Shown here piece by piece: positions 47,473 through 54,718 of a DNA stretch of 64,000 nucleotides. The notes beneath the pieces were generated by a model. That model had not been told where the DNA came from. It saw nothing but the letters and a program-made list of their open reading frames with translations, and ran no database searches. The stretch covers positions 1-64,000 of the forward strand of contig JAJXZT010000001.1 in NCBI GenBank assembly GCA_021779935.1, written 5' to 3'. The first letter of the stretch is position 1, and each line of letters opens with the position of its first letter. The translations under genes and the position numbers were made by a program. The stretch is from Acidobacteriota bacterium (GTDB lineage: Bacteria > Acidobacteriota > Terriglobia > Terriglobales > Acidobacteriaceae).

Positions 47473-47536
47473 TCGGCCCGCTCGGCCTCTCTCACGCCTC
47501 TAAGTGATACCATTTTGGTATCTGGAGGGATCTACC

Positions 47537-48253
47537 GTGGGTTCGCCATACGGCTTGGAATTGGTAGAAAATTGCCTCATCTGTAAGCTCCGCACAGATA
47601 GTTTCTTCTGCGGCCTTCCGAAACAGTCTTTGGAAGCTTTCGAGCGTGTCAAATTTACCGCTGCCTACCCGGCTGGCGCTGTTCTTTTTGTCGAAGGCCA
47701 GTCCCCCCGTGGCATTTATATGCTCTGCAAAGGGCGCGTCAAGTTGTCAACCACCTCTGCCGACGGCAAGACATTGATTCTAAAGATCGCGCAACCCGGC
47801 GAAGTCCTGGGATTGCACGCGACTGTTTCTGGCACACCGTATGAGATCACGGCAGAAACGGGTCAACCCTGCCAACTTAACTTCATTAAGCGTGATGATT
47901 TTCTTCGCTTTCTCCAGCAGCACGGTGACGCCTGCCTGAAGGCGGCGCAGCATCTCAGCCGCGATTGCCAGTCTGCTTACCAGCAGATTCGTTCCCTGGG
48001 CCTCTCTCACTCTGCCCCGGAGCGCCTGGCCCGCCTGCTCTTGGAGTGGTCCGCTGGAGACGGCGCAGACGCCGATGGCACGCGCATCAAGATCGCGCTT
48101 ACCCACGAGGAGATTGCTCAGATCATCGGCACCTCTCGCGAGACCGTCACTCGAACTCTCGCCGACTTCCGAAAGAAACAGATTGCGGTCCTGAAAGGCT
48201 CTACATTGCTTATTCGTAACAAGCCCGCCCTCGAGCGACTAGTCGGCGCATAG
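47537..48253 (+). CDS. Crp/Fnr-family regulator with FNR-like cysteines
   Basis: A 238-residue regulator with an effector domain (about 20-150) and a C-terminal HTH. Cys13, Cys16 and Cys25 (CLIC...FFC) plus Cys112 in TGQPCQLNF resemble the four cluster ligands of FNR, although the spacing between the second and third is 8 rather than 5, so an oxygen- or redox-sensitive Fe-S cluster is plausible. The recognition helix GTSRETVTR (198-206) has the Arg-Glu-x3-Arg set of CRP, which reads GTGA half-sites. The start is GTG 47537 with GGAGGG 7 bases upstream. Five matching palindromes occur in this window. Confidence 0.9.
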   Translation: MGSPYGLELVENCLICKLRTDSFFCGLPKQSLEAFERVKFTAAYPAGAVLFVEGQSPRGIYMLCKGRVKLSTTSADGKTLILKIAQPGEVLGLHATVSGTPYEITAETGQPCQLNFIKRDDFLRFLQQHGDACLKAAQHLSRDCQSAYQQIRSLGLSHSAPERLARLLLEWSAGDGADADGTRIKIALTHEEIAQIIGTSRETVTRTLADFRKKQIAVLKGSTLLIRNKPALERLVGA

Positions 48254-48605: not shown

Positions 48606-48953
48606 ATGAGCACGATTCGGGTTCTTCTCGCCGGACTTACGGCCTTGCTGTTTATTCTTACACTGCCGCGACCAGCAAGTGCGGCAGACGATTCCGCGCA
48701 AATATATAAGGTTCGTTGTGCCGCATGTCATGGAGTGGACGGTCACGCCGGCACACCCATGGCGCGCAAACAGAACATCCATTCTTTCGCTTCGGCCGCT
48801 GTCCAGAAGAAATCCACAGACGAACTTGCTGACTGCATTCTCAACGGAGGTAAGGAGAGAAGGGCATCGCATACCTTTGCGACGAAAGGATTGAGCGTCG
48901 AACAGGGCGCCAGCCTCGCCGCCTACGTCAGGCAACTCGGGAGACGCAAGTAG
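48606..48953 (+). CDS. Small periplasmic c-type cytochrome
   Basis: A 115-residue monoheme cytochrome c. A signal peptide (ending PASA) is followed by the heme motif Cys38-Ala-Ala-Cys41-His42. The C-terminal helix (LAAYVRQLG) matches class I cytochromes. In the place of the usual axial-methionine stretch before LS-x-E the protein has RASHTFATKGLS, with His and no Met, so the sixth heme ligand may be His or absent. AGGAG lies 5 bases before the ATG. It is the first gene of the HybA/HybB-like electron-transfer operon and would accept or deliver electrons in the periplasm. Confidence 0.88.
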   Translation: MSTIRVLLAGLTALLFILTLPRPASAADDSAQIYKVRCAACHGVDGHAGTPMARKQNIHSFASAAVQKKSTDELADCILNGGKERRASHTFATKGLSVEQGASLAAYVRQLGRRK

Positions 48954-49103: not shown

Positions 49104-49883
49104 ATGAGCAAGGCCATACTTTATGATGCAACGCTCTGCATCGACTGTAAGCAGTGTGAAGCCGCATGCGCCAAGCAGAACAATCTGCCATATGACGACA
49201 AGGTCGCTGCCGAAGAAGTCCAATCCGCCCACAAGTTCACCGTGGTGCTCAACAAGAACGACAAGTACATGCGGCGTCTCTGCATGCACTGTGACGAGCC
49301 GGCTTGTGTATCCGTGTGTCCCGTCGGCGCACTCCAAAAGACTGCACTCGGTCCTGTCACTTACGACGCGCACAAGTGCATGGGCTGCCGTTATTGCATG
49401 GCAGCTTGTCCGTTTGGACAGCCCAAGTACGAGTGGGGAAGCCTCAATCCCAAGATTCAAAAGTGCATCATGTGTCCCGACCGGGTTGCGGCCGGATTAC
49501 CGACCGCATGCGCGGAAGCCTGTCCGACCGGAGCGACCAAGTTCGGCGACCGCGATGCATTAATTCAGGAAGCTCGTGATCGGATCCGCCAGAACCCCAA
49601 CAACTATCTCCCTCATATCTACGGGATAGAGGAAGTTGGCGGCACTTCGACGCTTCTGCTTTCCAGCGTGGCTTTCGAACAGTTCGGACTCCCCAGCCCG
49701 AAGTCACTACCCAGCGATCCGTTGCCCATGTACACATATCGCGTTCTTTCGCGTATCCCTGACTTCGTTCCGCTCGGTGGCATTTTCCTTGGCGGTGTCT
49801 GGTGGATCACTCATCGCCGCGAAGAAGTTGCTGCCGCTGAAGGCGCTGAAAATGATGCGAAGCACAACGGAGGTGCACGGTGA
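49104..49883 (+). CDS. HybA/NrfC-like four-cluster ferredoxin subunit
   Basis: A 259-residue iron-sulphur protein with four cysteine groups: CIDCKQCEAAC, CMHCDEPACVSVCP, CMGCRYCMAACP and CIMC...CAEACP, as in HybA, NrfC and related membrane-complex subunits. A C-terminal hydrophobic segment (FVPLGGIFLGGVWWI) would anchor it. Unlike most HybA proteins it has no visible Tat signal at the N-terminus, so it may sit on the cytoplasmic side. The ATG at 49104 has GGAG 7 bases upstream. It overlaps the HybB-like gene by 4 bases. It would pass electrons between the membrane partner and a redox partner not encoded here. Confidence 0.88.
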   Translation: MSKAILYDATLCIDCKQCEAACAKQNNLPYDDKVAAEEVQSAHKFTVVLNKNDKYMRRLCMHCDEPACVSVCPVGALQKTALGPVTYDAHKCMGCRYCMAACPFGQPKYEWGSLNPKIQKCIMCPDRVAAGLPTACAEACPTGATKFGDRDALIQEARDRIRQNPNNYLPHIYGIEEVGGTSTLLLSSVAFEQFGLPSPKSLPSDPLPMYTYRVLSRIPDFVPLGGIFLGGVWWITHRREEVAAAEGAENDAKHNGGAR

Positions 49884-51058
49884 AGATCAAGCTTACTTTC
49901 TGGAGAGTCGTCTTCGTTGTCATCATGATTCTCGGCGCGTGGGGAACGGTCGTCCGCTTTACCCAGGGTCTTGGAGCCGCCACGAATCTCTCCGACCAGT
50001 TCCCGTGGGGCATCTGGATCGGTTTTGACGTTCTGTGCGGCGTGATGCTCGCGGCCGGCGGTTTCACGCTCACGGCTGCGGTGTACATCCTCAATATCAA
50101 ACGCTGGCACGCCATTGTGCGGCCCACCGTGCTGACCGCCTTCCTTGGCTACGTACTCGTGTGTGTTGCGTTGATGTTCGACCTCGGGCGTCCGTACAAC
50201 ATCTGGCATCCGCTCATCATGCGCAATCCGCATTCCGTGATGTTCGAGGTGGCCTATTGCGTCATGTTGTATACGACGGTACTGGCGCTTGAGTTCTCCC
50301 AAATCGTTCTTGAAAAATTCAAACTCGAGAAACCGCTTAAGTTCATCCGAGGCGCATTGATTCCGCTGGTTATCGTCGGCGTCATACTCTCCACGCTGCA
50401 TCAGTCGTCGCTTGGGACGCTCTACCTCATTATGCCGACCAAGCTGCATCCGTTCTGGTATTCACCGCTCCTGCCGGTATTTTTCTTCCTCTCGGCGATT
50501 GCTGTCGGCCTTGCCATGACGATCTTCGAATCGTCCATCAGTTCCAAGGTCTTCCATCGCCAACTGGAATTGCCCATTCTGCAGGAACTCGGCCGCGTGC
50601 TTTACATCGTTCTCTGGGTTTATTTCGTTCTCCGCCTGGAGGACCTCATCAATCGCGGCGAGATGCACAGCATTTTTGTTCCCGGCTATGAAATGTATTT
50701 CTTCTGGCTGGAAATAGTTCTTGCTCTCATTGCGCCAATGATTCTGCTGTCGATTCGCTCGATACGGAACTCACCCGGCGGTCTCTATCTTTCCGCGGTG
50801 CTTGTCGTATTAGGCTTCATTACGAATCGTCTTAACGTCAGCATCACGGGCATCGAGAGTTGGTCCGGGCTGCATTATGTGCCCAAGTGGACGGAGTATT
50901 CCATAACTGCCGCCATCATCGCGGTCGGTTTTGCGCTCTTCGGGTTGGCGGTCAAATACTTGCCGATCTTCCCGGAAGAGAAAGAGCACGGCACCGTTGC
51001 GGCGCACGAATCCGCAACTGCACCTGCGTCCGTATTCGTGGCCAATGCCGGGAATTAA
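49880..51058 (+). CDS. HybB/NrfD-like polytopic membrane subunit
   Basis: A 392-residue integral membrane protein with about ten hydrophobic segments, of the NrfD/PsrC family and closest in look to HybB (QFPWGIWIGFDVLCGVMLAAG; DLGRPYNIWHPLIMRNPHSV; LHQSSLGTLYLIMP). Such subunits exchange electrons with quinones for a partner Fe-S protein and can contribute to proton movement. ATG... the start codon is GTG at 49880, in a 4-base overlap with the HybA-like gene. No hydrogenase large or small subunit is adjacent. The 3' end overlaps the probable start of the sensor kinase gene. Confidence 0.88.
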   Translation: MKIKLTFWRVVFVVIMILGAWGTVVRFTQGLGAATNLSDQFPWGIWIGFDVLCGVMLAAGGFTLTAAVYILNIKRWHAIVRPTVLTAFLGYVLVCVALMFDLGRPYNIWHPLIMRNPHSVMFEVAYCVMLYTTVLALEFSQIVLEKFKLEKPLKFIRGALIPLVIVGVILSTLHQSSLGTLYLIMPTKLHPFWYSPLLPVFFFLSAIAVGLAMTIFESSISSKVFHRQLELPILQELGRVLYIVLWVYFVLRLEDLINRGEMHSIFVPGYEMYFFWLEIVLALIAPMILLSIRSIRNSPGGLYLSAVLVVLGFITNRLNVSITGIESWSGLHYVPKWTEYSITAAIIAVGFALFGLAVKYLPIFPEEKEHGTVAAHESATAPASVFVANAGN

Positions 51059-52781
51059 TCCAACCCGAATCGCTACAAAGTCCTCACAAGAGGGGCCGGA
51101 ACTGGGACACCGTCCCGCGACCGGTCCCTCATGGGGGAGATTTATTCCATTTTTTAGAGTGATTGACGACTCCATCAGCGCGAAGTTGATCCTGCTGCTC
51201 ATCGTCGCCATGGTTCTCACTTTCGCAACGGCTGGTTATATAAATATTCGTCTACACCGCGCACAACTGGAAAACAGCACGCTCGCTTCGGCCGATAGCA
51301 TGAGCGATGTCATCAAGCGAAGCACTTCTTACTACATGATGCGTAACGACCGTTACGCTCTCTACGAAATGATGAGCACCATGGCAGACGAACCGGGCGT
51401 AGTCCGCCTGCGTGTCATCAACCCTGAGGGCCGCATCAGCTTCTCCACCGATCCAAACGAGCTTGACAAGTTCGTCGATAAGGGCGCGGAGCAGTGCTAC
51501 GGATGCCACAAAGTCACGCAGCCGCTGTCCAAGCTCAACCGTCCCGACCGATTCCGTATCTATCGCTCGAATGGCAAACGCATTCTCGCCATCATTACTC
51601 CGATCGATAACAGTCCTGCTTGTTCTAATGCCGCCTGTCACGCCCATCCGGCCAGCCAGCAGGTTCTCGGCGTACTTGATACAAACCTCTCGCTGGCAGC
51701 GGCCGACCGGGGACTCGCCGCCAGCACTCGCGCCATGCTGGCATCCACGGTTGGAGCCGTAGTCTTCATTGCACTCGTCAGCTTCTGGTTTGTCTGGCAC
51801 GTTGTTCATAAACCCCTCAGCATGCTTCAGGCCGGCACAGAGCGTCTCAGTCGCGGCGAACTTGGTTACCAGATAAATGTTCACTCAAATGACGAAACCG
51901 GCCGGCTCGCTGTGTCATTCAACCAGATGAGCACCCAGTTGCTCGAAGCCCAGAACGAAATCACTGCATGGACCCGCACCCTGGAAACTCGTGTAGAAGA
52001 AAAGACCAGCGAACTAAAGCGTGCCCATGACCAGATGCTTCACGTGGAGCGTATGGTGGCCATCGGCAAGATGTCGGCTGTTGTTGCTCATGAAATCAAC
52101 AACCCTCTCGCCGGGATACTTACCTACGCTAAGCTCATCAAGAAATGGCTTGGCCGTGGACTCACCACGGATGCGGAGAAGAAGGAAGCCGCCGAGTGCC
52201 TCGACTTGATCGCGGCCGAGAGCCGCCGCTGCGGAGATCTCGTAAAAAATCTTCTTCAGTTCTCGCGTACCTCGCCGCTGAACATGGACCGCTCCGATTT
52301 AAACATCGTCATCGACCGATGTATTCGTCTCGTGCAACACAAGATCGACCTCCAGGGCATTCAGCTGCAAGTCAGCATCGCCACCGGTCTTCCTCTCGTG
52401 TATTGCGATGGCGCCCAGATTGAGCAAGTGATGCTTGCACTGATGATGAACGCGATTGACGCCATGCCTCATGGAGGAAATCTCTGGGTCAGTTCACGGC
52501 AGCTATCCCCTGGAGAAGTGGAACTCCAGGTGCGAGACGATGGCATGGGAATTCCGCCCGAACTTCTTTCGCGACTCTTTGAGCCGTTCACTACCACCAA
52601 GGAAGTCGGCAAGGGCGTTGGACTCGGTTTAGCTGTCAGCAAGGGCATCGTTGAGCGTCACGGTGGACGCATCGAGCTCCAGTCGGATCTCGGCGTCGGC
52701 ACCACATTCCGCGTCATTCTTCCGCTCGATGCCCGCATCTCGGACGCGGCAAAAAATGCGCTGGCCGCCGCTCGTACCTAG
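51045..52781 (+). CDS. Heme-motif sensor histidine kinase
   Basis: A 578-residue membrane histidine kinase. One transmembrane segment (about 47-66), a periplasmic domain with CYGCH (151-155) and CSNAACH (193-199, CX4CH type), both possible covalent heme sites, a second segment (about 230-252), HAMP, coiled coil, then the kinase: phospho-His349 in VVAHEINNPLAG, DDGMGIPPE and GVGLGLAVSKGI. It probably senses redox state or gases. The start is uncertain: ATG 51045 lies inside the HybB-like gene, while GTG 51159 would begin just before the first membrane segment. The cognate regulator follows 27 bp downstream. Confidence 0.85.
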   Translation: MPGINPTRIATKSSQEGPELGHRPATGPSWGRFIPFFRVIDDSISAKLILLLIVAMVLTFATAGYINIRLHRAQLENSTLASADSMSDVIKRSTSYYMMRNDRYALYEMMSTMADEPGVVRLRVINPEGRISFSTDPNELDKFVDKGAEQCYGCHKVTQPLSKLNRPDRFRIYRSNGKRILAIITPIDNSPACSNAACHAHPASQQVLGVLDTNLSLAAADRGLAASTRAMLASTVGAVVFIALVSFWFVWHVVHKPLSMLQAGTERLSRGELGYQINVHSNDETGRLAVSFNQMSTQLLEAQNEITAWTRTLETRVEEKTSELKRAHDQMLHVERMVAIGKMSAVVAHEINNPLAGILTYAKLIKKWLGRGLTTDAEKKEAAECLDLIAAESRRCGDLVKNLLQFSRTSPLNMDRSDLNIVIDRCIRLVQHKIDLQGIQLQVSIATGLPLVYCDGAQIEQVMLALMMNAIDAMPHGGNLWVSSRQLSPGEVELQVRDDGMGIPPELLSRLFEPFTTTKEVGKGVGLGLAVSKGIVERHGGRIELQSDLGVGTTFRVILPLDARISDAAKNALAAART

Positions 52782-52808: not shown

Positions 52809-54191
52809 GTGATCGCAGACAAAGGCAGTCTCCTGATTGTGGACGATGAACTGAGCGTGCGCGACTCGCTCGGCAAGTGGTTTCACGAGGAAGGCTATGA
52901 CGTTGCTACCGCGGAAAACGCTAATGAAGCCCTCCTCCGCCTCGCCGAAAAGAAGTGGGATGTCGCCTTGCTCGATATCAAGATGCGCGGCACGGACGGT
53001 ATCGAGCTCCAGAGGAGAATCCATGAAATTGATTCCGACCTGGCGGTCATCATGATGACCGGTTATGCCTCGGTGGAAACCGCCGTCGCTGCGCTGAAGA
53101 ACGGGGCGTACGACTACGTCACCAAGCCGCTGGACCCGGACGAGATTGCACACCTCGTCCAAAACGCGCTCGCCCATCGACGCACAAAAGAAGAGAACGT
53201 GCGCTTGCGCGAGCAGGTCGACGAGGCAGCGCGTCCTGCTGAACTGATCGGCCAGAGCTCGGCCATGAAGCGCGTCTTCGAAGCCATTGAAACCGTTGGC
53301 CCCACCGACGCGACTGTGCTCATCACGGGCGAGAGCGGCACCGGGAAGGAACTTGTAGCTCGGGCCGTTCATTACGCCAGCCCGCGCCGCTTCCACCCCC
53401 TCGTTGTCATCCACTGCGGCGCACTCACCGAAACACTGCTGGAAAGCGAACTCTTTGGTCACGAAAAAGGCGCATTTACTGGCGCACAATACCGGAAGAA
53501 GGGTAAGTTTGAAGTCGCCGAGGGTGGCACCGTCTTTCTTGACGAAATTGCCGACATCAGCCTCAAAACGCAGACGGACCTGTTACGAGTCTTACAGGAA
53601 CGCGAAATCGTACGCGTCGGCGGCAACCAGCAGATCAAGGTCGATTTTCGTTGCATTGCGGCAACGAACAAGCCGCTTGAACAGCTCATTGACGAAGGTA
53701 AATTCCGCCCCGATCTTTTCTATCGCCTTAATGTCTTCCGCATCGAAATTCCCGCGCTTCGCGAGCGCAAGGAAGACATCCCTCAGCTGGTCAACCACTT
53801 TGTCCGGAAGTTCTCACGTGAGATGAACAAGCGCATTACCCGCGTTTCCCCCCGCGCTATGGATGTTCTTCAACAGCACACCTGGCCCGGCAACGTTCGC
53901 GAATTGGAAAACGCTGTCGAGCGGGCGATGGTCGTCGCCCAGGAACCGGAGATTCACGACACCGATTTTGCGCTCAGCACACGCGGTTTCGTCGCCGAAT
54001 CCGCTTCTTTGTCCGGTGGACGTACTTTGGATGAGATGGAGAAAGCACACATCCTGCATGTTCTAGATGAATGCGGTGGCAATCAGACACGTGCCGCGGA
54101 AATCCTCGACATTGATCGCGTTACCTTGCATCACAAGTTAAAGAAGTACGGCTGGACCAAGGCTGTGTCGATGACGGGAACTGCCGAATAA
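52809..54191 (+). CDS. NtrC-family sigma-54 response regulator
   Basis: A 460-residue response regulator: receiver domain (1-125) with phospho-acceptor Asp56 (LLDIKMRG), AAA+ domain with Walker A GESGTGKE (about 174-181), the sigma-54 contact GAFTGA (221-226), Walker B FLDEIADIS, and a C-terminal Fis-type HTH (NQTRAAEILDIDRVTLHHKL). It would activate sigma-54 promoters when phosphorylated by the heme-motif kinase encoded just upstream. The start is GTG with AGGAG 9 bases upstream. No sigma-54 promoter matching the consensus was found in this window. Confidence 0.95.
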   Translation: MIADKGSLLIVDDELSVRDSLGKWFHEEGYDVATAENANEALLRLAEKKWDVALLDIKMRGTDGIELQRRIHEIDSDLAVIMMTGYASVETAVAALKNGAYDYVTKPLDPDEIAHLVQNALAHRRTKEENVRLREQVDEAARPAELIGQSSAMKRVFEAIETVGPTDATVLITGESGTGKELVARAVHYASPRRFHPLVVIHCGALTETLLESELFGHEKGAFTGAQYRKKGKFEVAEGGTVFLDEIADISLKTQTDLLRVLQEREIVRVGGNQQIKVDFRCIAATNKPLEQLIDEGKFRPDLFYRLNVFRIEIPALRERKEDIPQLVNHFVRKFSREMNKRITRVSPRAMDVLQQHTWPGNVRELENAVERAMVVAQEPEIHDTDFALSTRGFVAESASLSGGRTLDEMEKAHILHVLDECGGNQTRAAEILDIDRVTLHHKLKKYGWTKAVSMTGTAE

Positions 54192-54718
54192 TGAGCAAGC
54201 TGCTGCAAATTCTGCCGATCGGGGCACCGGATCGAGAGCTCACCGATTGGCTTTGTGCTCAACTCGCCGAGGGCTTCGACGTCTACGCCGAAGTCCTCGA
54301 GACCTCGCTGGACCCAGCGTTCGCGTTCCATCCCGAACGAGGCCAGTATCATTCCAGCGAAATCCTTGCGCGCATGACACCTTTCGTCACCCGCAAGACC
54401 TGGCGGCTCATTGCTCTCGCCGAGGTAGATCTCTACATTCCAATTCTCACATTCGTCTTCGGAGAAGCACAGATTGGCGGCCCCAGCGCCGTTGTCTCCT
54501 ACCATCGCCTTCGACAGGAGTTCTACGGACTTCCCGGGGACCGCGATCTCCTGGCACGTCGCCTGCTTACGGAGTCCATACATGAGCTGGGACATACACT
54601 CGATCTCGTTCACTGCTCTGACTATCGCTGCGTCATGGCCTCTTCTCATTCTGTTGAATGGATCGACATCAAGGAATTCAGCTTCTGTCCCGACTGTGCG
54701 GCCCGTGCCAATCGGTAG
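54191..54718 (+). CDS. amzA: Archaemetzincin metalloprotease
   Basis: A 175-residue zinc protease of the archaemetzincin family. Catalytic zinc motif: His131, Glu132, His135 and His141 in HELGHTLDLVHC. The family's structural zinc site is complete: Cys142-x4-Cys147-x-Met149 and Cys166-x2-Cys169. The glycine usual after the second His (HEXXHXXG) is Asp138 here. No signal peptide is present, so it should be cytoplasmic. Its ATG shares a base with the stop of the response regulator gene, so translation is coupled and a role in the same signalling unit is possible. Confidence 0.9.
   Translation: MSKLLQILPIGAPDRELTDWLCAQLAEGFDVYAEVLETSLDPAFAFHPERGQYHSSEILARMTPFVTRKTWRLIALAEVDLYIPILTFVFGEAQIGGPSAVVSYHRLRQEFYGLPGDRDLLARRLLTESIHELGHTLDLVHCSDYRCVMASSHSVEWIDIKEFSFCPDCAARANR

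Follow-up and report, generated by a model that had tools for sequence, protein, structure and literature searches.

It was only in 2026 that heme-containing Cache sensors received a definition, as a one-heme CXXCH family whose signalling members sense NO (PMC12889525). According to this definition (Deshpande et al. 2026), sCache_heme proteins possess one CXXCH motif in a Cache fold, and NO binding was demonstrated for the signalling-fused member studied, a P. azotoformans protein that binds NO tightly but does not stably bind O2 (PMC12889525). The chemoreceptor sensor domains GSU0935 and GSU0582 also carry a single heme, and Met60, its distal ligand, binds the reduced heme and leaves upon oxidation or NO/CO binding (PMC8396549). 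An additional heme motif was noted in the chemoreceptors GSU0591, GSU0599, Adeh_2011, and Adeh_3383 (PMC3831638), and CX4CH is counted among the heme motifs in cytochrome surveys (PMC5566968). One-heme sCache_heme sensors and extra heme motifs in a few chemoreceptors are, in other words, already published.

We analysed a 64,000 nt stretch of DNA from an Acidobacteriota bacterium (GCA_021779935.1, contig JAJXZT010000001.1, positions 1 to 64,000 of the forward strand), hereafter the window, which encodes a histidine kinase with two predicted heme sites. The kinase belongs to a conserved set of over 100 sequences that represents a predicted two-heme version of the heme Cache sensors, with a CX4CH sensing site, an invariant Met, and, nearly always, a neighbouring Fe-S/NrfD module. 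In the open-access literature, we found neither this kinase family nor its operon described, no pairing of CX4CH with a histidine kinase, no link between archaemetzincin and a histidine kinase, and nothing on the combination of Acidobacteria, NrfD, HmcC, and sigma-54.

The kinase and its two heme motifs

The kinase has the order TM1, periplasmic diheme Cache domain, TM2, HAMP, HisKA, and HATPase_c. Its start codon was picked based on frame, relatives, and residue numbering: the ATG at 51045 is in frame and overlaps the end of the NrfD-like gene, stop codon included, by 14 bases. A preliminary description of this DNA had placed CYGCH at residues 151–155 and CSNAACH at residues 193–199. With this start codon, both sets of residue numbers are exact, and the span then given for the two motifs (51493–51643) is correct to within 2 bases. 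The features of the kinase gene are as follows.

51045–52781, + strand: sensor histidine kinase, 578 aa (Pfam HAMP, HisKA, HATPase_c)
51186–51248, + strand: TM1, residues ~48–68 (model helix H2-52 and a hydrophobic run; limits approximate, set by eye)
51336–51338, + strand: Met98, invariant, proposed distal ligand of heme 2 (profile alignment to 3b42, conservation)
51495–51509, + strand: CYGCH, heme motif 1, residues 151–155, in a loop between strands (predicted added heme)
51621–51641, + strand: CSNAACH (CX4CH), heme motif 2, residues 193–199 (homologous to the GSU0935 heme site)
51645–51647, + strand: His201, second His of CHAH, possible axial ligand of heme 1
51741–51812, + strand: TM2, residues ~233–256 (model C-terminal helix H171-222; limits approximate, set by eye)

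The predicted periplasmic loop contains four Cys only, all inside the two motifs. When the loop was shuffled 20,000 times, both motifs were recovered together in 0/20,000 cases. Conservation says more about the reality of the motifs than this test. When the window's genome and 60 relatives were searched, 12 proved to contain the sensor domain, and C104, C107, H108, C146, C151, H152, and H154 were invariant in the alignment of those 12 (adding 47 to the alignment position gives the protein residue number). A scan of GTDB species genomes yielded 80 further loci, mostly from Acidobacteriota. Among 297 genomes drawn from the same phylum, 112 matched, the weakest matches spanning the HAMP end only. 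Outside Acidobacteriota, the scan found one record each under the labels Eisenbacteria, Lentisphaerae, Riflebacteria, Aminicenantes, and Bacillota; binning errors or transfers may lie behind some of these assignments. Matches were also found in 21 of 47 genomes from the phylum of L075 (some of these matches being weak) and in eight of nine from the phylum of L091, while the phylum of L067 gave very few strong matches. The same two-motif pattern was present in all three phyla.

The order CX2CH then CX4CH, with the second motif placed ~42–44 residues after the first, was found in 120 of 121 loci (a count in which about five loci duplicate others) and persisted down to ~40% identity. The sole exception, L087, possesses CX2CH at both sites. 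We then considered the extended family, i.e., weaker relatives fetched from the scanned genomes. The main type, CX2CH + CX4CH, comprised 153 domains and the CX2CH + CX2CH type about 10. One relative (L176) has CX4CH alone, without motif 1, and two (L171 and L140) have CX2CH at the second site alone, without a full motif 1. A chance origin of the second motif was ruled out by this conservation (120/121 loci; 153 domains). The earlier reading of the protein as a periplasmic sensor with two c-type heme motifs therefore holds at the level of conservation, both motifs being retained in those loci and aligned family domains. In particular, the conservation of C193, C198, and H199 equals that of the first motif, so that non-conservation of the second can be dismissed.

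The equivalent of Met98 was present in 45/45 aligned members, in 153/153 main-type members, and in all CX2CH + CX2CH members. His201 was found in 147 of the 153 main-type members, and its equivalent is absent from the CX2CH + CX2CH relatives. A tree built from 55 sensor domains clustered the main type strongly (2 changes versus 10.2 in shuffles). The tree gave no age order for the site-2 forms, its deep forks being supported at 74/62.

Fold and relation to one-heme sensors

The structure of the sensor domain was predicted using AlphaFold2 run on 45 aligned sequences (pLDDT 84). The model consists of a helix, two strands, the CYGCH loop, two strands, a short helix at CSNAACH, a strand, and TM2; the CYGCH loop is its least confident part (pLDDT 58–64). 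A Foldseek comparison of the model to the PDB returned WalK, GSU0935 (3b42), CitA, and GSU0582 (3b47), all of them sensors of the Cache/PAS-like kind and all with E<1e-3. Judging by the model, the sensor domain is a Cache fold akin to GSU0935 and GSU0582. The family profile also matches 3b42 by sequence (E=6e-4), with CSNAACHAH opposite CQSCH of GSU0935 and Met98 opposite chain residue 26. Since the heme ligand His144 is chain residue 110, the offset is 34 and chain residue 26 corresponds to Met60. The alignment of CX4CH and Met98 with the GSU0935 site identifies site 2 as the shared heme site and site 1, whose predicted CYGCH heme lies between two strands, as the addition.

Matches to established domain families were weak. 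The Mcp40H-20_sensor model PF21563 matched all 45 members weakly and scored 23.4 bits on the window protein, below the cut-off of 27. When this profile was run against the window's own genome there was no match, and the control genomes were equally without one, which leaves this negative uninformative. The window kinase has no PF11845 match, and in place of a single canonical CXXCH it carries two motifs, the homologous one being CX4CH. By its sequence the kinase would work like a GSU0935-type heme sensor, yet it lacks the one-CXXCH hallmark and stays below the curated cut-offs, and we therefore call it a diheme variant.

Compared to GSU0935 and GSU0582 (3b42, 3b47; PF21563), the kinase shares the Cache/PAS-like fold, the position of site 2, a Met at the Met60 position, and a membrane-proximal sensor with a signalling output. 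The two Geobacter chemoreceptor domains differ in having one heme, attached at CX2CH, a chemoreceptor output, and no CYGCH insertion. With the sCache_heme proteins (DUF3365/Tll0287-like, PF11845), the kinase has in common a periplasmic Cache domain with a covalent heme motif (predicted here) and, as often in that family, fusion to a histidine kinase; that family is, however, defined by a single CXXCH, and the window kinase falls outside PF11845. GSU0591, GSU0599, Adeh_2011, and Adeh_3383 likewise combine a heme Cache/PAS-like sensor with one extra heme motif but are chemoreceptors rather than kinases, and the likeness follows their description in PMC3831638, which covers neither motif spacing nor operon.

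These comparisons shift what is unusual about the protein. The preliminary description had singled out CX4CH as a rare site and had not recognised it as the heme site of a known one-heme family; given that homology, what is unusual is the extra CYGCH heme, together with an old site that has taken the form CX4CHxH. Its suggestion of a redox or gas sensor gained support from the fold, which in known sensors binds c-type heme to detect redox state or NO.

The window's own genome additionally encodes a chemoreceptor (L122, contig C44:5646-6038) with a one-heme Tll0287-like (PF11845) domain containing CLMCH, and thus has one-heme and predicted two-heme sensor types side by side.

Operon and sigma-54 output

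Comparison of the window proteins to all loci revealed a conserved gene order, absent from the preliminary description: HmcB-like Fe-S protein, HmcC/NrfD-like protein, kinase, sigma-54 regulator, and archaemetzincin. The neighbours of the kinase gene in the window are listed below.

48606–48953, + strand: small monoheme cytochrome c, upstream of the operon (Pfam Cytochrome_CBB3; similar gene in 27/66 loci)
49104–49883, + strand: HmcB-like Fe-S protein
49880–51058, + strand: HmcC/HybB-like NrfD-family membrane protein
52809–54191, + strand: sigma-54-dependent NtrC-type response regulator (Pfam Response_reg, Sigma54_activat, HTH_8)
54191–54718, + strand: archaemetzincin (M54) (Pfam M54; NCBIfam archmetzin above cut-off)

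Counting only loci that extended far enough, the HmcB-like and HmcC/NrfD-like pair was found upstream in 63 of 66, and the regulator and archaemetzincin downstream in 58 of 59. The pair resembles Hmc/Hyb/Qrc-type Fe-S plus NrfD modules in that HmcB- and HmcC-like genes lie side by side. It differs from them in scoring below the equivalog cut-offs (HmcB, 246 of 420 bits; HmcC, 336 of 550 bits) and in that no HmcA-type multiheme gene is adjacent in the window. Neither an NO reductase nor any other nitrogen-oxide gene was recognised among the genes conserved around the kinase. The archaemetzincin carries HELGHTLDLVH and a C-terminal CxxC, and its gene looks intact.

Upstream of the operon, gene content varied. 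The cytochrome c gene of the window is preceded by a Crp/Fnr-family regulator gene (47504–48253, + strand). In several divergent loci, cytochrome c is replaced by a membrane-anchored protein with a GcvH-like domain (glycine cleavage H, lipoyl-type), whose gene immediately precedes the HmcB-like one (L072:3603-4259, L080:1433-2086, L090:5353-6012, L058:14266-14928). Multiheme cytochrome genes (19, 9, and 9 CXXCH) adjoin the operon in some Bryobacterales loci (L083:647-5195 and L080:2-1219, both on the − strand).

The regulator is composed of a receiver, an AAA+ domain with GAFTGA (residue 221), and a Fis HTH, and sigma-54 is encoded in the genome. With its HisKA/HATPase_c kinase, its receiver/AAA+ GAFTGA/Fis-type HTH regulator, and a genomic sigma-54, the system has the composition of an NtrC-family two-component system. 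That the sensor controls a sigma-54 regulator, as proposed earlier, is made more plausible by the position of the regulator directly downstream in those 58 of 59 loci. In about 12 relatives (e.g., L034, L038, L069-L074, L081, and L082), −24/−12 elements with sequences such as TGGCACAGGAATTGCC were detected 40–62 bases ahead of the HmcB-like start; at this threshold, the background rate is 0.17 hits per 480 bases. In several relatives the regulator probably controls its own operon. Scans of the window at two thresholds gave no −24/−12 element before the operon, and the closest relatives of the window are likewise without one. A candidate upstream of the window's HmcB-like gene, TGGTACCAGGTGCGTTTGC, was rejected as a sigma-54 promoter due to its wrong spacing.

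Proposed mechanism and alternatives

The reading we favour, with moderate confidence, is that of a diheme Cache kinase in which heme 2 senses via Met98, heme 1 relays or tunes, and the sigma-54 regulator adjusts the electron-transfer module. The genome encodes ResB and CcsA/CcmC/CcmF-type cytochrome c assembly proteins, which makes covalent heme attachment possible. Heme 2 (CX4CH, His199) would be the sensing heme in common with GSU0935-like one-heme sensors, with Met98 most likely its distal ligand, binding or leaving with the redox state of the iron or being displaced by NO. Heme 1 (CYGCH, His155), on its loop between two strands, would most likely exchange electrons with heme 2 or tune its potential, and His201 is perhaps its second ligand. 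A ligand change at heme 2 would move the membrane-proximal helices and alter kinase activity through HAMP; the kinase would then phosphorylate the adjoining NtrC-type regulator, activating sigma-54 promoters.

The kinase probably reads redox state or NO and switches genes on through the sigma-54 activator; we read it as a redox sensor of the respiratory electron-transfer state, possibly NO-sensitive. Because a sigma-54-type promoter lies right before the same operon in several relatives, the system probably adjusts the periplasmic cytochrome/quinone module to that module's own redox state. Several observations weigh against this reading: the window itself lacks a recognisable sigma-54 promoter, the CYGCH loop was modelled at low confidence, and NO rather than redox sensing has been reported for a sensor-fused relative of the domain (PMC12889525). 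The role of His201 as a ligand is weakened by its absence from a few members and from the CX2CH + CX2CH relatives.

A stricter form of the favoured explanation, overlapping it, is that the HmcB/HmcC-like module or its cytochrome partner feeds electrons straight into heme 1, with heme 2 reporting the load. The near-constant linkage of the HmcB/HmcC-like pair is consistent with this, as are the monoheme cytochrome c gene upstream and the multiheme cytochromes beside some loci, and a second heme borne on a loop would offer electrons a natural way in. Gene linkage may, however, reflect co-regulation only, with physical contact an extrapolation from it, and we consider direct wiring a tentative option. 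Equally tentative is the broader proposal of a widespread, unnamed diheme kinase family in which the added heme is an electron port wired to an HmcBC-like quinone/cytochrome module, the kinase reports flux rather than a diffusible ligand, and archaemetzincin is a near-obligate companion.

It is rather unlikely that the protein is primarily a periplasmic NO sensor, with NO binding heme 2 and displacing Met98 and heme 1 merely keeping heme 2 reduced. Such a role would fit the tight NO binding, without stable O2 binding, of the P. azotoformans signalling-fused protein (PMC12889525) and the replacement of Met60 by NO in GSU0582 and GSU0935 (PMC8396549). The conserved partners, however, are Fe-S/NrfD electron-transfer proteins with no nitrogen-oxide gene recognised among them, and the GSU0935 heme doubles as a redox switch. 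That only one site holds heme, the other Cys pair being a metal site or a disulfide, is improbable: CX4CH is a non-standard attachment motif, and L176, L171, and L140 show that the first site is dispensable, but the proximal His is conserved alongside both Cys pairs, which a disulfide or simple metal binding would leave unexplained, and the second site of L087 is plain CX2CH.

With the favoured diheme reading, the group makes it testable whether electron transfer can be read out by a periplasmic kinase, and bacterial archaemetzincins gain a regulatory context. In some loci (L012, L091), the archaemetzincin gene directly adjoins that of the kinase.
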